Shown here: positions 1-19,575 of the stretch, in pieces
How positions within the stretch are numbered: position 1 is the stretch's first letter
How the letters are laid out: each line of letters begins with the position of its first letter
Virus record (IMG/VR): IMGVR_UViG_3300017951_000086
Location: 1-28,603 of that record
Reading direction: 5' to 3' (one strand)
Length of the DNA stretch: 28,603 bases
Source of the DNA: a virus
Made by a program: the position numbers and the translations under genes
Notes under the pieces: model-generated
Seen by the model: the letters and a program-made list of their open reading frames with translations, nothing else
The model's database searches: none
What the model was told of the DNA's origin: nothing

Positions 1-91
1 TGGTGCATTCGCCGGCAGTGCTGGTCGTACTGTACCCGTCAAGGTTTAAGTACAGGTTCTGTTCAACTGGTGTGTTCTTAATCTGAATCAC
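1..91 (-). CDS. 5' part of 120-residue virion protein spanning the window junction
   Basis: A minus-strand frame begins at GTG (89-91) and stays open to the window edge for 30 codons plus one base. That base joins the first two minus-strand bases of the right edge to make an ATT codon, and the frame continues into the piece at 28332-28603. The joined protein is 120 residues. GTG is chosen because the only nearby ATG reads ATG TGA. The start also lies three bases below a TATATATA box, in the same layout as the scaffold gene. Its position between the tail-tube-like gene and the portal suggests a small virion or head-tail protein. I do not recognise a named family with certainty. Confidence 0.75.
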   Translation of the reverse strand, partial: MIQIKNTPVEQNLYLNLDGYSTTSTAGECT

Positions 92-92
92 A

Positions 93-105
93 TCTATATA
101 TATAG
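93..105 (-). promoter_or_regulatory. Candidate promoter element CTATATATATAGA
   Basis: On the minus strand this 13-mer is followed by T and the GTG start of the 120-residue gene. The identical 13-mer lies at 2377-2389 directly before the ATG of the scaffold gene. It sits just after the terminator at 131-154, where a new promoter would be needed. The element is part of a 16-bp palindrome (92-107). Promoter function is inferred from position and recurrence. Confidence 0.5.
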
Positions 106-130
106 ATTCTGCCGCTCTGTTTGAATGCAG

Positions 131-154
131 AAAGGGGAGCCTTCGCCCCCCTTT
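131..154 (-). terminator. Rho-independent terminator-like hairpin after the tail-tube-like gene
   Basis: Bases 131-140 pair with 145-154 (AAAGGGG arm and CCCCTTT arm plus a GC/GC pair) with one A/C mismatch and a four-base loop. Read on the minus strand the stem ends in TTT. It lies 27 bases beyond the stop of the 182-766 gene and before the next candidate promoter, as expected for the end of the morphogenesis transcript. The U-tract is short, so termination may be incomplete. Confidence 0.6.
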
Positions 155-181
155 CCTCTTAACCAAATATGCCCCTGTCGC

Positions 182-766
182 TTATCCAACAGTTGCGCCC
201 CCGACATTATCCAAGGGGTAGTTTGCCGCACCACCGCCGGCACTAGCCGTGGCAATCCAGATTGGGTTCGGTTCCCGTCCGGTCATATCCAGCGTGTATC
301 CAGACATATCGCTAAACGCCTGCCCCGTGGTCAGGCTTCCGCCCGTCACGTTGCAACCATACTCGGCACCCAACAACCACACGTTGTCCATGTTGTCCTG
401 AACCCACACCTGAAACCGACCTTGGGTCAGAATCCGAATGTCGGCAATATCTGTGGCGTCCAGTTTTTGGAACGTCACGGACAACACCTGCTCGAAGAAC
501 GTGGTTCCGCTTGCCGGGTCTGACTGGTAGTTAACCGTCAGGCTCGACGTCTCCGGGCGTACATCAAACTGGTAGTACGTCTGTGCTTGAATTTGCGTTA
601 CGGTGTCGTTGGTCGCCGCCAACCAACCCTGTACTATGGGCGTACCCGAATCGTCGTATGGTACGCTCGGCTGGTCGATGTAGCCCGCGCTGATGAATAC
701 CGCCTTGATACCGCCTACGGAATCCTTACAGTCTACAATACGACCACTTGAGATTTCACAAGCCAT
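182..766 (-). CDS. Probable major tail (tube) or other abundant virion protein
   Basis: This 194-residue protein starts with MACEISSGRIVDCKDSVGG and is rich in beta-prone, Thr/Ser/Gly stretches, with no transmembrane segment. It follows the major capsid gene by 11 bases and is the last gene before a terminator. An N-terminus with this pattern is, from memory, common in virion proteins of Bacteroidota and marine phages, where a tail-tube role is often assumed. A general virion protein is certain enough; the exact role (tube subunit or decoration) is inference. The ATG at 764-766 is the only good start. Confidence 0.6.
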   Translation of the reverse strand: MACEISSGRIVDCKDSVGGIKAVFISAGYIDQPSVPYDDSGTPIVQGWLAATNDTVTQIQAQTYYQFDVRPETSSLTVNYQSDPASGTTFFEQVLSVTFQKLDATDIADIRILTQGRFQVWVQDNMDNVWLLGAEYGCNVTGGSLTTGQAFSDMSGYTLDMTGREPNPIWIATASAGGGAANYPLDNVGGATVG

Positions 767-777
767 GAGGTATCAAA

Positions 778-1833
778 TTAAAGAATGGTACTCAACGATG
801 CCACAACCACGTCACCCGGAATACCGACTTGAACGCCAAGTCCAAACCGCATCACGATTTTAACTTGGTCACTGCCGTCATACTGCCATGCGTCGATGTA
901 TTGTGCCGTCGTATAGTCGGTGTTCAGGTTAGAACCTGCGACCAAATTTTCCTCGTAGGTCAGCACAACAATCTGGTCAGGCAGACCGGGGCAAACGTGA
1001 ATGGGGATACCCAAGTATTGCAGGGTGTCAAACGCTTGGTTGGTACCCTGAAGGTTCACACCTTGATTGCTACCTGAAGCGGTCAAAGCCTGCATATACT
1101 TTCCGGCAACGGCATTGCCAACATAGAAGGCAACGTCCGTGCGGTTCAGAATGGCAGGACAATCGGCTACCGCCTCATTGTACGCCTTGCTAAACGGCCC
1201 CTCGTTTGTTCCGCTGTTGGCAAGGATACTTCCAGCCGTAAATCCGGTGGTTGTAACTACCGTCTCATTGACGCTTGCCGAACCAAGAATGGATGCGTTG
1301 TATCCAGCCGAAGTCAGGGTACCCGTATTACTCACAAAGCCTTTCTGACCGGTGGTCATACCGCCCAACCAAAGTCCATTTTCGACTTCTTGTGCCGCGT
1401 ATCCAGCAACCGTTGCCATGCAGAAGTTTTGGAATTCAGGACTTCCAGCACCCATCGTTGCACGTGCGCCCGTCATGCCTGCCCATGTCGGCAATAGCGT
1501 TCCGCGGCACAGTGCCTCCATGACCGCAAGGTCAGTCAGTTCCAGAACCCGTTCTCCAAGGGTGACGTTGTTACCGTCGTTCCAATCGCAGTTTGCCGCT
1601 TGCACAACATCACTGCTAGAAAGGTTACTGATAACCGCCTTGTTTTGGATGCCGTCAATCTGACGGACAAAGTTCTTGTTCAGCGTGTCCGCAAGTTTCA
1701 GGGCAGGTGCCACGTAGGGCAGTGCCTGTACACCTGCGTAGGTCGTGGCAGGGCTAACCGTAGGCCCTTCACCTGCCGCGAAGTTCCGGCGACGCATCGC
1801 ACGGTTACTCATTACAGGGTAATTCATACTCAC
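778..1833 (-). CDS. Major capsid protein (HK97-fold type presumed)
   Basis: This 351-residue protein would form the icosahedral head shell. A basic N-terminus (MRRRNF) is followed by an Ala/Gly/Thr-rich body. A cysteine and VTLGERVLE stretch near residues 83-100 resembles the 'C-x-f-n...vtLteRvL' pattern of capsid proteins in Bacteroidota phages. It directly follows the scaffold-like gene, which is the usual scaffold-capsid order. The predicted start is GTG at 1833, whose GTGA overlaps the scaffold stop; an ATG two codons later (1827) is equally possible. The HK97 fold is inferred from family and length, not visible in sequence. A processing site after residue ~20 is possible given the upstream protease gene. 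Confidence 0.8.
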   Translation of the reverse strand: MSMNYPVMSNRAMRRRNFAAGEGPTVSPATTYAGVQALPYVAPALKLADTLNKNFVRQIDGIQNKAVISNLSSSDVVQAANCDWNDGNNVTLGERVLELTDLAVMEALCRGTLLPTWAGMTGARATMGAGSPEFQNFCMATVAGYAAQEVENGLWLGGMTTGQKGFVSNTGTLTSAGYNASILGSASVNETVVTTTGFTAGSILANSGTNEGPFSKAYNEAVADCPAILNRTDVAFYVGNAVAGKYMQALTASGSNQGVNLQGTNQAFDTLQYLGIPIHVCPGLPDQIVVLTYEENLVAGSNLNTDYTTAQYIDAWQYDGSDQVKIVMRFGLGVQVGIPGDVVVASLSTIL

Positions 1834-2375
1834 TTGAATTTGTTAATCATGTCCAATGCCTGCTGTGTCGACTTGGCAAGACCTCCAAGGTTCTGTTGCG
1901 TAGCCTCGTTGCGAACCGGTCGGTTGCTCAACGGACGGGCGGCAGGACGTGCGCCCATACGACCCAATTCCTCGCGCAGTTCGCGGTTCTGACGTGCCAA
2001 CCGGCGCATCCGACGCTCCATGCGTTCGACTTGGGACATTTCCATACGACGACCACGCGGGCGGTCTTCGCTCATTCCGCGACGGCGGCTGTAACCGCGA
2101 CGCTTGCTACCCATGCGACGTGCGCGACGGGCTTCTACTTTCTGTTCTTCAGTCACCTCTTCTGTTGTTTCGGTGGTTTCGCCTTCGCCGCTGTTAATCA
2201 AATCCATTGCCATTGAATGGACGGCTTCAGCTTGTTCGGCTGACAACCCCATGTCAACCAAGATGGATACAAATTGCTCGTGGTAGTCGGGGCTTTCTTC
2301 CACGGTTTCGGTGGTCTCCGTCGTCTCGGTGGTAGTCTCCTCGACTACATCTTCCTCAAACTTTCGTCTTGCCAT
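1830..2375 (-). CDS. Probable capsid scaffolding protein
   Basis: The protein has 181 residues in three zones. Residues 7-30 are a Glu/Thr low-complexity tract (TETTETTETVEE). Residues 75-115 are very Arg-rich with RRARR and KRRGYSRRRG. The rest is helical and coiled-coil-like with a short hydrophobic C-terminus. Charged, helical, low-complexity proteins directly before the capsid gene are typically internal scaffolds, which the prohead protease removes. The stop overlaps the capsid start (GTGA). Its own ATG lies three bases below a TATATATA box. The Arg tract could also bind DNA, so an internal head protein is the alternative. Confidence 0.6.
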   Translation of the reverse strand: MARRKFEEDVVEETTTETTETTETVEESPDYHEQFVSILVDMGLSAEQAEAVHSMAMDLINSGEGETTETTEEVTEEQKVEARRARRMGSKRRGYSRRRGMSEDRPRGRRMEMSQVERMERRMRRLARQNRELREELGRMGARPAARPLSNRPVRNEATQQNLGGLAKSTQQALDMINKFK

Positions 2376-2376
2376 G

Positions 2377-2389
2377 TCTATATATATAG
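2377..2389 (-). promoter_or_regulatory. Candidate promoter CTATATATATAGA before the scaffold gene
   Basis: On the minus strand the 13-mer is followed by C and ATG, so TATATATA lies three bases from the start codon. It is identical to the element at 93-105. This would give head genes (scaffold, capsid, tail-tube-like protein) their own high-level transcript separate from the small-gene block upstream. A start site near the ATG implies an almost leaderless mRNA. Confidence 0.5.
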
Positions 2390-2394
2390 GGTGT

Positions 2395-2655
2395 TTATTT
2401 TCCCGTGTACGCGGCTAACAACAGTTCCTCGAACAGTTCCCAATCAATCTCGGCAATGTCCAGTGGTGCCGTCTGTTGGAATACTACCCATGCCTCGTTG
2501 TAGTCCTCCGCCAAAATTAGTTCCTCGATAGTCGGTATCGCCTCAATGAACGTTGGCTCGTAGGCATAGTCCAGTTGGAATTCGTCCAACATGGCTACCA
2601 ATTCTTCTTGCTCGGAATTGACGAACCCTTCTACTACACGTTGCCAAAAACTCAT
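2395..2655 (-). CDS. Small strongly acidic protein, unknown
   Basis: This 86-residue protein has about 20 Asp/Glu and only two Lys/Arg, so its net charge is near -18. Hydrophobic residues are spaced as in amphipathic helices (LFEELLLAAY at the end). It begins with an ATGA overlap with the next upstream small gene and ends 19 bases before the scaffold gene. I recognise no family. Extreme acidity and position beside an ArdA-like gene fit a DNA-mimic or anti-defence role, which is inference only. Confidence 0.7.
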   Translation of the reverse strand: MSFWQRVVEGFVNSEQEELVAMLDEFQLDYAYEPTFIEAIPTIEELILAEDYNEAWVVFQQTAPLDIAEIDWELFEELLLAAYTGK

Positions 2656-2855
2656 GCAATGTCGATTGATACGTACAACTCGTCACGCATCCACGTTACC
2701 AACTCGTCAATGTCTACGGCGTCATACTGTGGTTCGATGTCGATGCTCGTTGACACTGCGTCCCAACGTCGGTCGACCATGATGTATCCGTACCTATCCA
2801 AGATTGGGTTCAATTCTTCGGCGTCGAAGTAGTCGTCAAGGTGCAAGGTGTACAT
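2652..2855 (-). CDS. Small acidic protein, unknown
   Basis: This 67-residue protein has about 17 acidic and four basic residues, a net charge near -13. It has no signal peptide or membrane segment. It shares one base with the upstream gene (TGATG) and overlaps the downstream gene by ATGA, so translation is probably coupled through the block. No family recognised. Confidence 0.7.
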   Translation of the reverse strand: MYTLHLDDYFDAEELNPILDRYGYIMVDRRWDAVSTSIDIEPQYDAVDIDELVTWMRDELYVSIDIA

Positions 2856-3058
2856 CAGAACCGGAACAACTCGTAGTCAATGGCGGCTTCATCCATAATG
2901 GCTTCCGCCTTGCGCAAGTCCGTTACGGCAATGTCAATGTACATGGCACCAAACGCGCCCTCGCCCGTACCGTCAACCCGTACTCCGTCCTCCTCAAAGA
3001 ACATCAGCGCGTCTTCAAAGTCGTCCGGGTCGGCAATTAGAATTCTATCTGTAACCAT
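2855..3058 (-). CDS. Small acidic protein, unknown
   Basis: This 67-residue protein has about 18 acidic and five basic residues (DPDDFEDALMFFEEDG near residues 10-25). The alternating pattern with a hydrophobic beta-like middle (AMYIDIAV) suggests a compact alpha/beta fold. The TAATG junction with the ArdA-like gene suggests coupled translation. No family recognised; a role with the ArdA-like protein is inferred from position. Confidence 0.7.
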   Translation of the reverse strand: MVTDRILIADPDDFEDALMFFEEDGVRVDGTGEGAFGAMYIDIAVTDLRKAEAIMDEAAIDYELFRF

Positions 3059-3789
3059 TAGTAGCTACGGAAAAAGTACCCGTCGACCTCGGTGTAGTCG
3101 TAACTCAAATCGCGGGCGAATGACTTGTAGTCGAAGTAGTCGGACACCTTGTCGCCCAACGCAGACTCAAGGTCGCCCACCATATCGTAGATATACCACT
3201 CTCCAATTTCTTGGTGCGACTTGCGCATAAAGTCGTCGTACACGGCTTGCGCTTCTGCCTCTGTGTCGTACCGGTCTTCCCAATCGTCCATCAAAAGTGA
3301 CCACAAGTCGCCGTTGACGTCCAGCGCATAGCCGAATTTGTCGTAGTCGAAGTACCTATCCGCCAACTCTTTTGGCAGGTCGTTTCCGTATACGTCGTCG
3401 ATAAACTGGTACGCAAAGTCTAACATACTGTCCGCTTGTCCTGCGTAGGCGTTTTCCATGAACTCCTCGTAGTCGTCCGAATAGCCCATTTCGTCAGCCG
3501 CTTTGACAATGACTTCCGGCTTTACGCCGTAGTCTTTAGACACGTCAAACAGTGCGTCCCACTTGTCCCACACGGATTCGTCGCGGTTGATTTGCCACGC
3601 ATCCTCCCTGCCGATGTAGTCGTAGCTGACAATATCGTAGTCGACAAAGCCTAGGCTGTCAATCTTTTCTTGGAAGTCGTCCACCCATGCGTCATACGAA
3701 TTGTAGTCCAGCGGGCGGAATCGCACGTCGGTATCGCCTCCCGTCGGAAGGTAGATACGGTACCAAATTTCAATGTCTGTCTTATTCAT
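3058..3789 (-). CDS. ardA: ArdA-like antirestriction protein with duplicated C-terminal domain
   Basis: ArdA proteins are elongated acidic dimers that mimic B-form DNA and block type I restriction-modification enzymes. This 243-residue protein is strongly acidic and follows the ArdA pattern. Residues 7-60 resemble the N-terminal domain (IWYRIYLPTGG, then YDIVSYDYIG), and 70-120 the middle helical domain. The diagnostic C-terminal motif (Y-x-D-Y-x-x-[FY]-x-x-x-L-x-x-x-G) appears as RYFDYDKFGYALDVNGDLW at 145-163. A second copy, DYFDYKSFARDL followed by DGYFF, lies at 217-240. Known ArdA proteins are about 165-170 residues; the extra ~70 are explained by this second copy. The stop and start overlap neighbours (ATGA, TAATG). 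Function is from family; the duplication is seen in the sequence. Whether it binds the same targets is unknown. Confidence 0.82.
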   Translation of the reverse strand: MNKTDIEIWYRIYLPTGGDTDVRFRPLDYNSYDAWVDDFQEKIDSLGFVDYDIVSYDYIGREDAWQINRDESVWDKWDALFDVSKDYGVKPEVIVKAADEMGYSDDYEEFMENAYAGQADSMLDFAYQFIDDVYGNDLPKELADRYFDYDKFGYALDVNGDLWSLLMDDWEDRYDTEAEAQAVYDDFMRKSHQEIGEWYIYDMVGDLESALGDKVSDYFDYKSFARDLSYDYTEVDGYFFRSY

Positions 3790-4052
3790 GCTACTTCGAT
3801 GCTTGTTGTGTTGATTCGACTAGCAAAGGACTTTGCTTGCACATAGTCTACAAAGGCGTTCCAATGCCCAAGGAATTCGCTTTCGCTGTTGTAGCCCAAA
3901 TCCACTTCGCAGTAGATGAACACATCAGACCCTTCTTGCTCTACGCGAATGTCCCAAAAATCGTAGTCGTATTCGATTGACCAATCCTCCATCAATTCGG
4001 CAATCTGCACCTCGTCTGCGCCTTGTGCGTAGGCTTCAATATACCCTTCCAT
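3786..4052 (-). CDS. Small acidic protein, unknown
   Basis: The ATG at 4052 gives 88 residues and follows the previous stop by one base (TAAGATG). A TTG at 4073 would add seven residues but overlaps the upstream gene. The protein is acidic and aromatic (EYDYDFWDIRVEQEG near residues 28-42), with one Cys. It overlaps the ArdA-like start by ATGA. No family recognised; it is part of the acidic block. Confidence 0.7.
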   Translation of the reverse strand: MEGYIEAYAQGADEVQIAELMEDWSIEYDYDFWDIRVEQEGSDVFIYCEVDLGYNSESEFLGHWNAFVDYVQAKSFASRINTTSIEVA

Positions 4053-4053
4053 C

Positions 4054-4275
4054 TTATCGTGGTCTAAACTCAATCAAAATTCCCTCCGGGTCTTGCCGAA
4101 CGTTCCATACGCTGTACGGCATATTGTGACCTAAATCCAATTCGTCCGCCAAATCATCTGCGACGTCTACTAAATACGTGCCTGTCTGGTCAATCATGAT
4201 GTGAAACACGCTGTGTCCCAACACATTGTAACCAAGGTCTTCCAGTTCACGCACCACGTCTTCCGTATCCCACAT
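4054..4275 (-). CDS. Small acidic protein, unknown
   Basis: This 73-residue protein begins 15 bases after the protease stop. It has a predicted N-terminal helix (TEDVVRELEDLGYNVL), a beta-like middle and an acidic stretch (DVADDLADELDLG near 37-49), ending in a short basic tail (EFRPR). The downstream gene starts one base after its stop. No family recognised. Confidence 0.7.
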   Translation of the reverse strand: MWDTEDVVRELEDLGYNVLGHSVFHIMIDQTGTYLVDVADDLADELDLGHNMPYSVWNVRQDPEGILIEFRPR

Positions 4276-4290
4276 ATTGCAATCTACTAT

Positions 4291-5238
4291 TTAATGCTGA
4301 AAATACCCAAACTCTCTGCGCATACGGGCTTTCATATACGCCTTGTAGAACCGCACCTTGTCCGCGTTCAGTTCCACCTTCTCGTCGTTCTCGGCTTCTC
4401 CTTGCGTCTCCTCTACCGCTGACACCTCGCCGTCGTACTCAATCAGTACACCGTCATAGACTTCCAATTCTACGCCTGCCTGTGTGCGGTACTTGCCGTT
4501 CTTCATCTCTACCGGCATACCCTCGGCGTCAATCATTTTGACCGTTGACCCCGCGCCCATTGCTTCATCCTCGGTAGCAATGACGGTGCCGTCCTCCAAA
4601 CTAATTTCCGTGTAGAACTGGTGGCGACGGAACAAGCCTTTCACCGTCTGCCACAACTTGTCCTTCATGCTCAATTCCTGCTTGCTCTTCTTTGCGCGTC
4701 GTGCCTGTACAACGGAATCAATGAAATAGCCTTCGATGGAGAACCCCCGAATTTCGCCCGCTTTGACCTTCTCCCACATCTCGTCGTTAGCCACGTGTAC
4801 CCGAACCATCCATGTACCCTCCGGCATACTGAACCCGTATGCCTTGGACTTGTCCATGTCCGGGTTCTCCACAATCCACGACTCCACGACGTGTACCCCA
4901 TCAACCGCCGTCTGGTGTTCCAACGTGTGTTCGTTGGTGCGGCTGTGCATCATGTATAGTTCGCTTGCCTTCTTGACCGTCTCGGCACTGAAGAATACAT
5001 CGTATTCCTCGTCGCCGTCATAGCGCACAATATGCTTGTCAGGAATCAGCGCGGCACCAATTAGGGTGCGCTTGTCCTCGTCGACGGTAGCCAACGTGAC
5101 CATGCGCGTAGCGGCACCCTTGCTGAATGCCACCCACAATTCCTCAATAGCCGGGTCGTGAACAAGACTGATTGCCTCAACGGGCAAACCTTCTTGCTCG
5201 TCGCCAATCATGAGTTCTATCAGTTTGCGGTCTGCCAT
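4291..5238 (-). CDS. Prohead protease, XkdF-like phage serine protease
   Basis: This 315-residue protein probably cleaves scaffold and capsid precursors during head maturation. The central block matches the XkdF pattern: HVVESWIVENPDMDKSKAYG, then MPEGTWMVRVHVANDEMW and VKAGEIRGFSIEGYF, containing candidate His and Ser catalytic residues. A basic and acidic C-terminal third follows. The ATG at 5236-5238 (MADRKLIELMIG) is chosen over an upstream in-frame ATG because it forms a TAATG junction with the preceding stop. The same gene start is also copied at two upstream junctions. It lies between small acidic genes, separated from scaffold and capsid by about 1.9 kb, which is unusual. Confidence 0.75.
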   Translation of the reverse strand: MADRKLIELMIGDEQEGLPVEAISLVHDPAIEELWVAFSKGAATRMVTLATVDEDKRTLIGAALIPDKHIVRYDGDEEYDVFFSAETVKKASELYMMHSRTNEHTLEHQTAVDGVHVVESWIVENPDMDKSKAYGFSMPEGTWMVRVHVANDEMWEKVKAGEIRGFSIEGYFIDSVVQARRAKKSKQELSMKDKLWQTVKGLFRRHQFYTEISLEDGTVIATEDEAMGAGSTVKMIDAEGMPVEMKNGKYRTQAGVELEVYDGVLIEYDGEVSAVEETQGEAENDEKVELNADKVRFYKAYMKARMRREFGYFQH

Positions 5239-5240
5239 TA
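5219..5240 (-). repeat. Original copy P of the 22-bp protease-start repeat
   Basis: The first seven codons of the protease gene (MADRKLI) and the preceding TA. An exact 22-base copy lies at 5465-5486 and a 19/22 copy at 5732-5753, each just before a small gene. Confidence 0.85.
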
Positions 5241-5459
5241 GCGTAGGAATTGGATATAGTGGTCTCCCGTTCCTGCTCTCCAACCTTCGACATCTTGATA
5301 GACGCCTTCATTGACGTACTCTTCCGCAATGTCCATCAACTCTGCAAAATCGCCGGGGTACGCCATACTGCCCATGATATACGTTACCATGTCGGCATTT
5401 TGCTCGACATCGTAGTCAATGCCGAATTGGTCTATTTCTGTTCCGAAAGTGCCATACAT
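5238..5459 (-). CDS. Small acidic cargo protein, unknown
   Basis: This 73-residue protein (MYGTFGTEIDQFG start) is acidic with few basic residues and no membrane segment. Its stop forms TAATG with the protease start. Its ATG follows by one base the stop of a seven-codon mini-ORF copied from the protease start, a layout suited to translational reinitiation. No family recognised. It looks like a cargo gene inserted in front of the protease. Confidence 0.7.
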   Translation of the reverse strand: MYGTFGTEIDQFGIDYDVEQNADMVTYIMGSMAYPGDFAELMDIAEEYVNEGVYQDVEGWRAGTGDHYIQFLR

Positions 5460-5460
5460 C

Positions 5461-5486
5461 TCAAATCAGTTTGCGGTCTGCCATTA
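5461..5486 (-). repeat. Copy Q of the protease start, forming a seven-codon mini-ORF
   Basis: Minus-strand ATG at 5484 reads M-A-D-R-K-L-I-stop, ending at 5461. Bases 5465-5486 are identical over 22 bases to the true protease start. The mini-ORF starts within the TAATG of the 80-residue gene's stop, and its TGA is one base before the next ATG. It is best read as an insertion scar that may also couple translation. Confidence 0.8.
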
Positions 5487-5726
5487 GGGTTCAAGGATAT
5501 GCACTGAATTGCCAAAGACTTCGTACAGCGCGTCGAACATCTCCTGCTCTTCTGCCAACCCTTCGCCCGTCAAGTCTACCATGACTTGTGTGTCGTATGC
5601 GCCATTAATTAGAAACACTTCGGGCAAGTCACGCCTGTCTCGCATCAATGCCTCTTCTAATATGTCCTTGACCTCATATACGGTTGCGCTTCCGTCGTCA
5701 ATCAGAATGTCTCTTGAAAATGCCAT
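5484..5726 (-). CDS. Small acidic cargo protein, unknown
   Basis: This 80-residue protein has an acidic helix (VYEVKDILEEALMRD) and a Gly/Glu-rich segment (LTGEGLAEEQEMFDALYEVF). It follows mini-ORF copy R by one base (TAAGATG), and its stop overlaps mini-ORF copy Q. No family recognised. The flanking copies mark it as a separate cassette. Confidence 0.7.
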   Translation of the reverse strand: MAFSRDILIDDGSATVYEVKDILEEALMRDRRDLPEVFLINGAYDTQVMVDLTGEGLAEEQEMFDALYEVFGNSVHILEP

Positions 5727-5727
5727 C

Positions 5728-5753
5728 TTAAATCAGTTTGGGGTGTGTCATTA
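5728..5753 (-). repeat. Copy R of the protease start, diverged mini-ORF
   Basis: Minus-strand ATG at 5751 reads M-T-H-P-K-L-I-stop. Bases 5732-5753 match 19 of 22 bases of the protease start. Copies Q and R also agree beyond the repeat (AACTGATTT, one variable base, AGATG), so they are related to each other as well as to the protease. The larger divergence suggests an older event than copy Q. Confidence 0.75.
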
Positions 5754-5754
5754 T

Positions 5755-6033
5755 TCAATAAGGGTCGTACACGGCAACGACTTGAAAGTATTTGGGGCCG
5801 TCGTCGAAGGATGCCCAAAATTCGTGACCGGTGTTTTTCAGTGCGGTTGCCAACCGTGACTCCGCCTCTTCAATCATTTCGCCTTGAAGGTCGTAACTGA
5901 TTGGGTATCGAAAGACAACTTCATAGTCATCGCCTGTCAAGGTGCCGTGACTATATATCTCACTTTCGCCCAACTGCTCCACCTTGTGCGCAACGTCTAA
6001 AGCAATCTCTTTTGTCAGTTGTTTTACATTCAT
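5755..6033 (-). CDS. Small acidic cargo protein, unknown
   Basis: This 92-residue protein has an N-terminal helix (LTKEIALDVAHKVEQLGE), a beta-like centre (DYEVVFRYPISYDL) and a second helix. Its start lies 22 bases after the tape measure stop, behind a CCCTATATA sequence also found before the scaffold gene. Its stop precedes mini-ORF copy R. It is less acidic than the neighbours. No family recognised. Confidence 0.7.
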   Translation of the reverse strand: MNVKQLTKEIALDVAHKVEQLGESEIYSHGTLTGDDYEVVFRYPISYDLQGEMIEEAESRLATALKNTGHEFWASFDDGPKYFQVVAVYDPY

Positions 6034-6055
6034 CTACTCTACTATATAGGGCTGT

Positions 6056-7954
6056 TTATAGTACCGTCTGGTAGTCTAAGCGTTCCTGTTCCAATGCGCT
6101 ACCCTGCAAATCCGACTGCACGACATAGGCGTGTAGCGGCTCTATCTGTCCCCCTGTAAACTGCACGTTGGGTACCATGCCTTGACGCCAACCTTGTAGC
6201 CCGGCATTGCCCATTCTCCGAACTGCGCCACCGCCCGTTGCCGTATCGCCTCCGCCGTCGTCCGGACTCTCGTACTTCATAGCCTTGATTTTGGCAACCT
6301 TCGCTAGACCCGCGGCAATTGCTGAACCCGCCGATATAGCCGCTCGAATTGGTGCATCCGGACTCGGCACCGTCATTTGTGACTGGTACGCCTTCTGTGC
6401 CGCGGCATACGTACTCATGATAGTTTCCGCTAGTTGGATACGCTTTGATGCCTCGAAATTCTTTCGGCTCTGCTCGTCTTGCTGTGCGCGTTCCTTGTCG
6501 TTGAACGCCCGGAAGATGCCAATCAAATCCATCGCCGCGTTCTCTCGCAGACTAGCTAACCGTTCCTGTTGTTGCTCGGCGTCATCCCGTTCCTTCGCGT
6601 CTGCATCCTCTCGCAGTTTCTCAAGGTCTGCGTTCAACTGCTCCGTAGCCGCTCGAATCAGTCCCTCGTCGTCGCCGGCAATTGCTACCCTCTGGTCGTA
6701 CAACTGCATCAGCCGCCGTTCTTCTAGGTCGTACTCGGACATTTGCAGTTCCTCCAACTCCGTAGCCAATTCCTGACGTGCCTTTAGTTCGTCTTGGTCT
6801 TGCGCGTCGCGCTGGTCTTGGAACTGTTTTTGGATAGCTAGGCGGTCAGCGTCGTATTGCTGTTCGAGAATGAGCAACTGTTCGTCGGTCGCCCCTCGTG
6901 CTTCCAGTTGCGCCTTGGCGTCCTTGTACTCGAACTCCCGCTTCTTCAATGCTCGTTGCTCGTCGTCCTCCAACATCTGCAACGTCATATCCCGTTGAAT
7001 CTTGACAATCTGGTCAGCCACGTATTGCTCGTCTGCCAACCGCTTTGCCGCGTCCTGCTCGTCTTTCCTGTTCTGCTCCTCCTTGGCGTCGTCATCCATT
7101 TTGTTACGCCGCAACTGATACCCCGCCCGTTGGTTCTCCAACTTCAACAGTTGGTCTTCTGCCTCGTCAATTAGTTTGTTGCCGTCCTCCCGTGCCTTGT
7201 CCGGGTCGAACCCTAGCAGGGATGCACCGCCTTCGAGGTAGTCAGTAACCAACGTCGTCGCCTCCTCCATGACTCCGATTTGCGCAAGACCGTAAGTCAG
7301 CGCGTCAACGGCAGTTAGCAATACCGTCAGCGGTGCAGAGATAAGGGCAAGAATTGCCATGCTCGCATTCTTGGCTTGCTCCTCAAACTTCACCTGTTCG
7401 TTCGTCTGGTCAATCAGACTTTGAACCATGATTTCCTGTGCGGCTATGGCTTCATCAGTTGCCGCCATACGCATGGCTAACAAGTCCTCTTCCGTCTTGC
7501 CTTGTAGCTTCAGGATGTTTTCCTGTTGGCTGATGGCGTCAAGGTTGTCCTGCGAAAGTTGCACCTGCTCTTTGGCTAGGTCTACCTGTTTCTGCGTTTC
7601 GTCCGATGCCGCCGTAATGCTCTCACTTATGCTGTCCCAATTGGCGACAATCTCACCCAACGCCACCACAAGCAATCCCAAACCGGTGGATGCGATAGCA
7701 CCTTTGAGAACCTTAAAGCCTTTAGACAATCGCCCAATCTGTCGTTGGGCTGACTTGAACCCACGGATACTCGACTGCAAGCCACGCGGCAACAACCCGC
7801 TGAACAGGTCGCCAACGCCACCCCAATCCTTGTTGGCTTTCTTGGCGGCATTCGATGCGTCCTCGCCTAGCTTCTTCACGTCACGACTCGCACGACGAAT
7901 GGGCGCACTAGCCTTATTGGTTGCCTTGATGTTTACGTTAACGGTACTCGCCAT
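6056..7954 (-). CDS. Tail length tape measure protein
   Basis: Tape measure proteins occupy the tail lumen and set tail length; 632 residues predict a tail near 95 nm by the usual 1.5 angstrom per residue rule. The N-terminus is basic and helical. Hydrophobic segments lie at about 85-104 (GAIASTGLGLLVVALGEIV) and 199-227 (AILALISAPLTVLLTAV). A long Gln/Glu/Arg-rich coiled coil runs from about 260 to 500. The C-terminal part is Gly-rich. The KGFKVLKGAIASTGLG block is typical of tape measures in Bacteroidota phages. Its start overlaps the preceding 57-residue gene by 17 bases. Confidence 0.88.
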   Translation of the reverse strand: MASTVNVNIKATNKASAPIRRASRDVKKLGEDASNAAKKANKDWGGVGDLFSGLLPRGLQSSIRGFKSAQRQIGRLSKGFKVLKGAIASTGLGLLVVALGEIVANWDSISESITAASDETQKQVDLAKEQVQLSQDNLDAISQQENILKLQGKTEEDLLAMRMAATDEAIAAQEIMVQSLIDQTNEQVKFEEQAKNASMAILALISAPLTVLLTAVDALTYGLAQIGVMEEATTLVTDYLEGGASLLGFDPDKAREDGNKLIDEAEDQLLKLENQRAGYQLRRNKMDDDAKEEQNRKDEQDAAKRLADEQYVADQIVKIQRDMTLQMLEDDEQRALKKREFEYKDAKAQLEARGATDEQLLILEQQYDADRLAIQKQFQDQRDAQDQDELKARQELATELEELQMSEYDLEERRLMQLYDQRVAIAGDDEGLIRAATEQLNADLEKLREDADAKERDDAEQQQERLASLRENAAMDLIGIFRAFNDKERAQQDEQSRKNFEASKRIQLAETIMSTYAAAQKAYQSQMTVPSPDAPIRAAISAGSAIAAGLAKVAKIKAMKYESPDDGGGDTATGGGAVRRMGNAGLQGWRQGMVPNVQFTGGQIEPLHAYVVQSDLQGSALEQERLDYQTVL

Positions 7955-8111
7955 TCTGAAGTATTAACCGCATCTTCTGCCAAGACGACTTGGAAAGGCT
8001 GTACCGCCCGTACCACTGCGACCACATAGGATGCCCCTTCTGTATATTCTTTTTCGCTATCTGTATGCTCGGTGCTATGCCCCGCCCGACCTCGTTGATG
8101 AAGTGTTTCAT
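7938..8111 (-). CDS. Small basic protein (57 residues) before the tape measure
   Basis: ATG at 8111 forms TAATG with the stop of the 1043-residue tail gene, and the frame runs 57 codons to a TAA inside the tape measure start. The sequence begins MKHFINEVGRGIAPSIQIAK and is basic with four Trp. The junctions are typical of the genome, and without this gene there would be an unusual 156-base gap. Its role is unknown; the position suggests a small tail assembly factor. Confidence 0.6.
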   Translation of the reverse strand: MKHFINEVGRGIAPSIQIAKKNIQKGHPMWSQWYGRYSLSKSSWQKMRLILQNGEYR

Positions 8112-18346: not shown

Positions 18347-18750
18347 GATGCCTCGTATGCTTGTTGCAGTTGTTCCAGTCGCTCCATGACGCACGACCCG
18401 CACCGCGACTTCTTCTTGCGGACACCGTAGACTTTTTGGTACAGGTCAATCAATACGCCCTGCTCGTCTGATTGTACGTGTCCCTTCTCTTTAGCTGGCA
18501 ACAGTACCGTTTCCCAAACCTTCTTGTCCTTGTCGTCCATCGTTTTGAAGTACGGGAATTTGCGGTTCAACCATTCCTTCCGCTTGTCGCATCCGCAATC
18601 GTCCCCGGCTACTGCCTTCACCGCTTTCTTGACCGGCTCCGGAATTAGGTTCTCCACCGTATCCCCTAATCCTTTCTCGGTTTTCTTCGCAGTACGCTTG
18701 CGCCGTCTTGACGGCTTTGTAGATGGTGTGTCGGCTGATTCCTGTTGCAT
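18334..18750 (-). CDS. Cys-containing basic protein, overlaps the sigma-like gene by 260 bases
   Basis: The protein has 138 residues: a basic N-terminus (PSRRRKRTAKKTEK at 13-26), a DDCGCDKRKEWLNRKF motif at about 50-65, and a CGSC pair near residue 117. The DCGCDKRKEWLN block resembles a conserved phage protein of unknown role. It starts inside the sigma-like gene in another frame, so about 80 bases encode both the sigma HTH and this basic tail. A zinc or iron-sulphur site is possible. Function unknown. Confidence 0.7.
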   Translation of the reverse strand: MQQESADTPSTKPSRRRKRTAKKTEKGLGDTVENLIPEPVKKAVKAVAGDDCGCDKRKEWLNRKFPYFKTMDDKDKKVWETVLLPAKEKGHVQSDEQGVLIDLYQKVYGVRKKKSRCGSCVMERLEQLQQAYEASCES

Positions 18751-19183
18751 CGCTCAATGTGTTTAGTGAATGTTCGTGCAGGTAGTACGCCTTGAATATC
18801 TCTGCGTCTATCCATCGAATTTCCTGCAATATATGAAATACCCCTTCTATCTGGTTTTCTATGTCTACAATATTTTTTTCCTCGTCTTGTTCTACGTTAC
18901 GGAATATCTCCATAGGTAGCCCCCGCGCCTCTTTCTCGGTGTGCTTCTTGTACTTCTTGTAGAACGGGCTACTGCTACTGAACCCGCATATCTGCATGGT
19001 TCGGTTCAGGTATGCTCCTAGTTCCCCGCGCTCGCACAACTGCTCGGCGTGGTCGTTCTCGTTCAAGTAGTTCAGGCACAAATCATTCAGCAAGTCGCCC
19101 GCTAAATCTGACCCTACATACTTCCGGGCTAACCGGTACAGGTGGTTGTAGTTCTCCGTAAGGTAGCGACGAACACAACTCAT
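18491..19183 (-). CDS. RNA polymerase sigma-70-like factor
   Basis: Residues 12-45 (YNHLYRLARKYVGSDLAGDL) resemble sigma region 2. Residues 138-165 (SLNTLSDATGISRHTIYKAV) form a sigma region 4 type HTH. The total is 230 residues, but the last ~55 are Gly/Arg/Gln-rich and lie over the 138-residue gene, so they are probably an unconstrained read-through. Phage sigma-like factors redirect host RNA polymerase to late promoters; CTATATATATAGA elements are candidate targets. It is encoded with NinG upstream and an alpha-CTD-like gene downstream. Overlap with NinG is ATGA. The sigma call is by pattern. Confidence 0.65.
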   Translation of the reverse strand: MSCVRRYLTENYNHLYRLARKYVGSDLAGDLLNDLCLNYLNENDHAEQLCERGELGAYLNRTMQICGFSSSSPFYKKYKKHTEKEARGLPMEIFRNVEQDEEKNIVDIENQIEGVFHILQEIRWIDAEIFKAYYLHEHSLNTLSDATGISRHTIYKAVKTAQAYCEENRERIRGYGGEPNSGAGQESGEGSSRGRLRMRQAEGMVEPQIPVLQNDGRQGQEGLGNGTVAS

Positions 19184-19575
19184 TGCTTCAGCCTCCGTTC
19201 AAACTCCGCTCTCATGTCCCGCAAATCCTGAATGGAGAATTTGCTAGGCTGGTTCGATAGGTACACGATGCGGTCGGCTGTACCCTCGCCGTACACCGCG
19301 TCCAACTTCTTGGCGAACAGGTACTGTTGCCCGCCGTTGGTCATGTTACACCGTTTGCACTGGCATTGTACGTTGGTCAACCCTTGCTCCGGCTCGTACA
19401 ACCACCGCGTAGAATGCTTACTGCGCGACATAAAATGCCCGCAATCCATCGCTTGCCACCGCTCCCTGCGACCGCACGTCCAGCACGTAGCTATACCGGA
19501 TTCGTCGGCGGCTGACTGCCTGACCAATTTGCTTAACGCCGCGTCTAGTTTCTTCTTTTCTAGTGACCTACCCAC
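19180..19575 (-). CDS. ninG: NinG-like recombination endonuclease
   Basis: NinG (Rap) of lambda is a structure-specific endonuclease acting on Holliday junctions and D-loops in phage recombination. This 131-residue protein has the family pattern: CWTCGRR (residues 31-37), then CGHFMSRSKHSTRW and VQCQCKRCNMTNGGQQ, giving the Cys clusters of a zinc site. The C-terminal part is helical. It is somewhat shorter than lambda NinG (204 residues), so part of the N-terminal region is lacking. It overlaps the sigma-like gene by ATGA and follows the replication genes. Confidence 0.82.
   Translation of the reverse strand: MGRSLEKKKLDAALSKLVRQSAADESGIATCWTCGRRERWQAMDCGHFMSRSKHSTRWLYEPEQGLTNVQCQCKRCNMTNGGQQYLFAKKLDAVYGEGTADRIVYLSNQPSKFSIQDLRDMRAEFERRLKQ

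Follow-up and report, generated by a model that had tools for sequence, protein, structure and literature searches.

We analyzed a 28,603-nucleotide stretch of viral DNA (positions 1 to 28,603 of IMG/VR record IMGVR_UViG_3300017951_000086; here, the window), a 28.6-kb record whose virion genes are encoded by the minus strand, and describe the interval between its tape measure and scaffold genes, a row of small acidic genes that we interpret as a probable array of single-gene cassettes. The gene calls are our own tiling of open reading frames (ORFs) and not an annotation, and all features given below lie on the minus strand. The interval contains eight small ORFs (67 to 92 residues, with net charges between -10 and -18) together with an ArdA-like gene; a prohead protease lies in their midst. 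The ORF map confirmed the original prediction of an island of small acidic genes around the protease, between tape measure and scaffold, and the charges quoted there for the 86- and 67-residue proteins were correct on recomputation. That prediction had counted eight genes; eight small genes are indeed present, but the ArdA-like gene is an extra one, so the island holds nine in all, and all nine proteins are acidic.

Taken in the direction of transcription, the upstream border of the array is formed by the tape measure gene (6056 to 7954; PHROG tape measure matches), a neighbor that is conserved among relatives, and by a directly read 22-nt junction after it (ACAGCCCTATATAGTAGAGTAG, 6034 to 6055). 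Cassette gene 1 (92 residues, -10, 5755 to 6033) is followed by a first copy of the window-type junction repeat (CAAACTGATTTAAG-ATG, 5724 to 5740), gene 2 (80 residues, -14, 5484 to 5726), a second copy (CAAACTGATTTGAG-ATG, 5457 to 5473), and gene 3 (73 residues, -13, 5238 to 5459); no relative was found for any of these three genes, and both repeat copies were recognized by comparing repeat counts with chance expectation. Next come the prohead protease (Peptidase_S78_2, XkdF-like; 315 residues from its ATG; 4291 to 5238; Pfam PF14550, E = 9e-19), gene 4 (73 residues, -12, 4054 to 4275; one relative, in locus L049), gene 5 (88 residues from its ATG, -17, 3786 to 4052; 95 residues if the TTG at 4073 is the start), the ArdA-like gene (3058 to 3789), gene 6 (67 residues, -13, 2855 to 3058; relatives in L037 and L046), gene 7 (67 residues, -13, 2652 to 2855; no relative found), and a gene termed c8 (family f0; 86 residues, -18, 2395 to 2655), which adjoins the scaffold. 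At the downstream border, a junction that was also read directly (ACACCCTATATATATAGAC, 2376 to 2394) precedes the scaffold-like gene (1830 to 2375), which was assigned by its position before the capsid gene and its homologues in relatives and has no PHROG match. The major capsid gene (778 to 1833; PHROG structural match) provided the basis of the family tree. The junctions at 6034 to 6055 and 2376 to 2394 resemble each other (ACAGCCCTATATAG / ACACCCTATATATATAG), and similar TATATA-rich borders, which may be promoters or array borders, are recurrent in relatives.

We found that the ArdA-like protein (243 residues, charge -40) matched Pfam PF07275 at 39.3 bits, above the cut-off of 27, and two PHROG anti-restriction families at E values of 2.7e-10 and 5.3e-8. 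Its AlphaFold model had a pLDDT of 92 and a pTM of 0.76 and was aligned by VIA-align to the ArdA structure 2W82 with a Z score of 8.5 and a root mean square deviation of 3.4 over 151 of 163 residues, while the next row scored 3.8. A profile of the protein compared with PDB sequences retrieved 2W82 at E = 0.036, whereas a Foldseek search with the model returned nothing at E 0.001 and did not have 2W82 among its best 50 matches. We found no match to the protein among isolate phages. Model and sequence support a true ArdA-like protein in the window, with a three-domain ArdA fold and a charge of the DNA-mimic type, in agreement with the identity first proposed for it. It shares with ArdA (PF07275; Tn916 ORF18, PDB 2W82) sequence similarity above the cut-off, the fold over its whole length, and the extreme negative charge; it differs in its size, 243 residues compared to about 165 in known ArdA, and in its location, since it lies in an operon of virion genes and not in a leading region. 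ArdA and Ocr inhibit type I enzymes by mimicking DNA (PMC3874165).

Searches with the protease, capsid, and ArdA proteins as queries yielded 32 loci, and two scans with junction sequences (described below) added more. Stretches from these scans were mapped only if they held at least two junction copies (47 of 67 and 16 of 46, some of the remainder being contigs already in the set), and loci L034 to L146 are therefore biased to carry the junction, having been found through it; among family loci found through proteins, with the window and short fragments counted, 14 of 22 have at least two copies of junction type A, B, or C. Fragments and near copies (L036, L037, L043, L051, L052, L057, L058, L068, L076, L085, L088, L089, L096, and L141) were omitted from the breakpoint, junction, charge, tree, and sharing counts. 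The longer family contigs are mostly 26 to 30 kb. Among named phages, Nonlabens phages P12024S and L come closest, with identities of 32% (portal protein) and 21% (capsid protein), and because these distant relatives infect Nonlabens, marine Flavobacteriia are plausible, unproven hosts. No match to the DNA of window positions 1 to 8000 was found among isolate phages. A search of a bacterial and archaeal genome collection (39 patterns) with the capsid profile found no relative, and so no provirus and no host.

Twenty-nine loci span the interval from tape measure to scaffold, 24 of them members of the family; the interval of the distant relatives L007, L008, L009, L011, and L012 lacks the family's small genes. 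Each of the 24 full family intervals has 7 to 11 small genes (c8 included), and they show 23 different orders, as L085 and L097 share one array. The 376 distinct small proteins, a set that leaves out seven distant loci (L007 to L012 and L033), fall into 132 sequence families, of which 66 have a single member. Five of the window's eight small genes have no relative among the 376 proteins and one is conserved, which agrees with the accessory character that had been proposed, as does the variation in gene content and order across related phages. The conserved gene is c8, whose family comprises 33 distinct proteins and stands before the scaffold in 23 of the 24 full intervals, sometimes with a larger gene, c25, in between. 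The original prediction of a moron fails for this most acidic of the small genes, as its presence in nearly every interval makes it a core gene. The ArdA-like gene is found in 13 of the 24 intervals, at differing positions, and the position of the protease relative to the cassettes also shifts among family loci. c25 (about 270 residues) is found in nine of the 24, at differing places; it is Gly/Thr-rich and by eye resembles a virion surface or decoration protein (L017:4433-5254, L022:3981-4799, L027:7247-8056), moves with the same junctions in loci with type A junctions, and had no Pfam match in the two members searched. In P12024S (L147), opposite-strand small genes and a DNA methyltransferase lie at 32360 to 35572, before the capsid end of the record, and this place may be accessory too.

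In many family loci, successive array genes are linked by one recurring short sequence. We distinguished type A (TAA-ACAACAGAGAT-ATG), type B (TAA-AACAACTTAAAG-ATG), and type C (TAA-ACCACAACGAT-ATG) junctions. In A-type loci, the A spacer (at least 9 of 11 positions) was found at 194 of 327 array genes compared to none of 291 other genes, and an 11-nt gap occurred at 177 of 296 array junctions compared to 1 of 256 junctions elsewhere. Among these 177 junctions, the stop codon is TAA in 176 and the spacer is identical in 117. The type A pattern had 40 matches in 8 of 20 records, on a single strand in each record, and its reversed control had none; coordinates placed 37 of the 40 inside an array, and the remaining three fall at one end of contig G009, with the array resuming at its start. 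The type B pattern had 40 matches, distributed over 15 of 16 records. A separate junction type (CAAACTGATTTRAG-ATG) is used in the window, with two copies compared to 0.10 expected by chance. A scan for it found six contigs, and it is present in the same zone of two family contigs: L176, and L177, where two consecutive copies occur and one of them has two mismatches; the other four contigs carry no family genes. B-type arrays (L006, L018, L107, L122, L137, L138, and L143) have junctions specific to each zone: between tape measure and protease, after the protease (a copy of the protease 3' end), after ArdA (TAATAAAAAGAAT-ATG), and after c8. That the junction after the protease repeats the protease's own 3' end would follow from a duplication of the local junction at each insertion.

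We identified 127 pairs in which the same cassette (at least 80% DNA identity, mean 0.91) has different neighbors on both sides. In the flanks of these pairs, the first 14 nt to the left and right retain an identity of 0.71 to 0.95, beyond which it mostly drops to 0.2 to 0.4; some pairs lack the junction on one side and form the low-value rows. These alignments, counted without c8 and the protease, show that the units of exchange are single genes, gained, lost, and reordered whole, with their joints at the junction. Modular exchange of cassettes, as read from the compared sequences, is well supported.

Junction types A and B are intermixed on the capsid tree and do not form clades, although some deep forks of this tree are weak and L086 and the distant rows are on long branches. 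With c8 left out, near-identical cassettes were shared 150 times in 561 A-A locus pairs, 35 times in 105 B-B pairs, and only twice in 510 A-B pairs. The expected A-B value was 81, and none of 5000 label shuffles, which ignore relatedness, was as low as the observed 2. At a capsid identity of 0.65 to 0.75, sharing was found 13 times in 53 A-A pairs but not in 43 A-B pairs, and A-A pairs at an identity of 0.45 to 0.55 still shared 12 times in 91. When G+C content was matched within 0.015, the corresponding values were 97 in 207 for A-A and 1 in 84 for A-B.

The array proteins are more acidic than other small proteins encoded in the same loci. The median net charge per residue is -0.153 for the 376 small array proteins and -0.033 for 122 other small genes, a difference with a Mann-Whitney p value of about 1e-43 that is only nominal, since related proteins are not independent. 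The median charge of the array proteins is -12, 97% of them are at -5 or lower, and none is at or above zero; the other small genes have a median of -3, and those of the window outside the array range from -12 to +8. Two array genes in the same cassette position are barely acidic (-1) and by eye resemble membrane proteins (L004:7524-7727 and L002:5739-5993). The array ORFs behave as genes under purifying selection, as differences at codon positions 1, 2, and 3 number 615:417:1546 in 109 equal-length cassette pairs of relatives with 80 to 97% DNA identity.

A Pfam scan of 132 representatives, with a re-scan of ten, found DUF3846 in one family at 37.2 bits, above its cut-off of 27.5. Another cassette family came near DUF7249 at 23.9 bits, below the cut-off of 27, and a DpnD-PcfM match in the scan of representatives was not traced to its member. 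The model of one cassette family (f1, present in relatives and not in the window) has a confident ferredoxin-like fold; a Foldseek search with it gave only generic matches without functional meaning, none at E 0.001. One trial comparison of the f1 and f31 profiles gave nothing, so we claim no single superfamily. The most acidic cassette family had no match among isolate phages. We consider a repertoire of anti-defense proteins the probable, though far from certain, role of the small proteins, and the best reading, because of their acidity, small size, turnover, and coding selection and the ArdA in the same row, all of it read from sequence.

We also searched for a recombination machinery. Tyrosine integrases (PF00589) were found in none of 19 family records, which may be incomplete, although all 14 control genomes were positive, and serine resolvases were likewise absent from all 19, with positive controls. 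In contrast, NinG was found in 14 of the 19 records, the window included, and was above the cut-off in 13; the window gene (19180 to 19575; Pfam PF05766, 33.2 bits, cut-off 25.4) is a candidate helper of junction recombination. We take NinG to be a nuclease like lambda Rap. As a separate observation, window positions 18491 to 19183 by eye resemble a gene for a small sigma-factor-like protein, with only weak helix-turn-helix matches.

Taken together, we favor, at a probability of roughly 0.6, a single-gene cassette array that is reshuffled at short junction repeats and most likely changes an anti-defense repertoire. In this family of tailed phages of about 26 to 30 kb, each cassette would consist of a stop codon, short spacer, and start codon joined to one small acidic gene. 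The junction repeats, nearly identical over 17 to 18 bp within a type, would provide the short stretches of homology at which the DNA of co-infecting phages anneals or crosses over, perhaps assisted by the phage NinG nuclease and with no site-specific recombinase. The cargo would be fast-changing host-interaction proteins, mainly defense inhibitors, of which the ArdA-like DNA mimic would be the sole recognizable case. Since the array sits among late virion genes, these proteins might act late, against defenses that sense virion proteins or assembly or on new DNA, or be carried to the next cell.

A bolder and more tentative proposal, to which we give somewhat less than even odds, is that the junction acts as an exchange address. 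The array would then be an integrase-free platform in which a 17- to 18-bp gene-to-gene repeat sets the trading partners: phages with the same junction would share one anti-defense pool across deep capsid divergence, those with different junctions would share hardly any of it, and a lineage would reset its pool by changing the repeat. The arsenal would comprise DNA-mimic-like and other inhibitors from mostly undescribed families.

Several observations weigh against these interpretations. Only DUF3846 was confirmed above its Pfam cut-off among the representatives scanned, so the case for an anti-defense role is built from ArdA, acidity, and turnover. At several junctions, among them most of those in the downstream half of the window's array, the genes overlap or other sequences stand in place of the repeat. 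No ERF-family annealing protein was found in the 19 family records, whereas one is present in P12024S. G+C content, and perhaps the host, also distinguishes A from B loci, and such differences could keep the pools apart without a role for the junction; a host barrier that coincides with junction type could be an alternative cause of the A-B separation. Finally, plasmid ArdA genes are among the first to enter and act early, according to PMC3874165, whereas the window operon looks late; for the anti-defense reading, this placement in an operon of virion genes is the greatest oddity.

The junction might instead be a translation (re)initiation signal of a tight operon, the exchange being ordinary phage mosaicism and the repeat not a recombination site. 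We regard this as possible but doubtful. The junction ends in ATG, nearly always follows TAA, and has a fixed spacing, its RNA structure is not beyond chance (seven folds), and the hosts may be Bacteroidota, to judge from the distant relatives that infect Nonlabens. Ribosomes of Bacteroidota use little Shine-Dalgarno pairing. However, all 291 other genes of the same loci lack the junction, its sequences in different lineages are unrelated, and in B-type arrays it varies by zone, with one zone copying the protease 3' end; moreover, cassette sharing follows junction type when capsid identity and G+C are matched. Roles of the junction in translation and in exchange are compatible and not mutually exclusive.

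It is less probable, and in our view unlikely, that the small proteins belong to the prohead core or the head interior, where the scaffold would package them, and are ejected together with the DNA, as are the type IV restriction inhibitors IPI to IPIII of T4. The protease lies within or after the array, whose end is at the scaffold gene, and injection would explain the presence of ArdA within a late operon. Two sources describe the T4 internal proteins (IPs) as nonessential, variable, located in the core with the scaffold, injected, and anti-restriction (PMC9026906, PMC12373910), with the injected small proteins blocking type IV enzymes (PMC12373910); the T-even internal-protein (ip) loci share with the array their variable, nonhomologous small proteins, their assembly link to scaffold and protease, and, by these accounts and as predicted for the array, an anti-restriction role. 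However, T4 IPs are basic and have an N-terminal capsid-targeting sequence, as stated in PMC9026906, whereas the proteins here are all acidic. The 132 representatives have no common N-terminal motif, only Met1 being nearly invariant, and a shared head-targeting peptide of the T4 type was rejected on this ground; a 29-kb phage would also have little head space. T4 has three IPs in two loci, compared to 7 to 11 small genes in one row here. We know of no repeated gene-to-gene junction in T-even ip loci.

A plain anti-defense moron island without a special exchange platform seems improbable, since it would account for ArdA, the acidity, and the presence/absence variation but does not predict repeated junctions, lineage types, or sharp breakpoints. 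The original interpretation was of this kind. It is partly supported, in that the genes are accessory and acidic and ArdA is present, but it missed the cassette array with repeated junctions in the family; this junction-coded array is the new part that extends it, and the moron island survives as the functional half of the best explanation. An array of the integron kind, in which an integrase would act at attachment sites, is strongly disfavored and very improbable. Its head-to-tail single-gene cassettes and repeated junctions are matched here, and integrons have been reported in phage genomes (PMC9892861), but the 19 family records lack tyrosine integrases and serine resolvases and the junctions show no hairpin or structured attC-like site: six junction regions, five from relatives and one from the window, showed no more folding than shuffled sequences (z of -0.68 to 1.06), and the 17-mer junction alone is unfolded. 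A host integrase could still act. That the array is filler with chance ORFs, keeping genome length near a packaging optimum, is scarcely credible; the fuller records are alike in length and vary in content, but the codon-position bias and uniform acidity speak against it.

The junction-coded array is a variation on known modular phage exchange. In T4-type phages, the mobile regulatory cassettes termed PeSLs, reportedly described by Arbiol in 2010 and Comeau in 2014, likewise consist of short intergenic repeats to which a role in modular shuffling is attributed; PeSLs hold a promoter and a stem-loop, whereas the junctions here are 11- to 12-nt spacers without a hairpin. The lambdoid nin region, which includes NinG, has small accessory genes in tight succession that are swapped at short boundary homologies; in contrast to its boundaries, one junction here is repeated across the array and differs between lineages. 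PeSL-type elements are also described for the archaeal virus HGTV-1 (PMC3950731). In plasmid leading-region anti-defense islands, as presented in PMC11541004, ArdA is also clustered with genes of unknown function, whereas here the setting is a phage virion gene operon and the other cargo differs. A literature search limited to open-licence papers found no description of such an array.

If the small proteins are defense inhibitors, the array would be a sequence-addressable source of them, since searching with a single 17-mer retrieves arrays by the dozen and the 132 small-protein families of these phages are mostly unnamed. The family also offers a natural test of phage gene swapping, with the repeat as a marker of breakpoints and with gene pools that differ by junction type when capsid distance is the same. 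Thus, where mosaicism puts its joints becomes directly testable within one small phage family.

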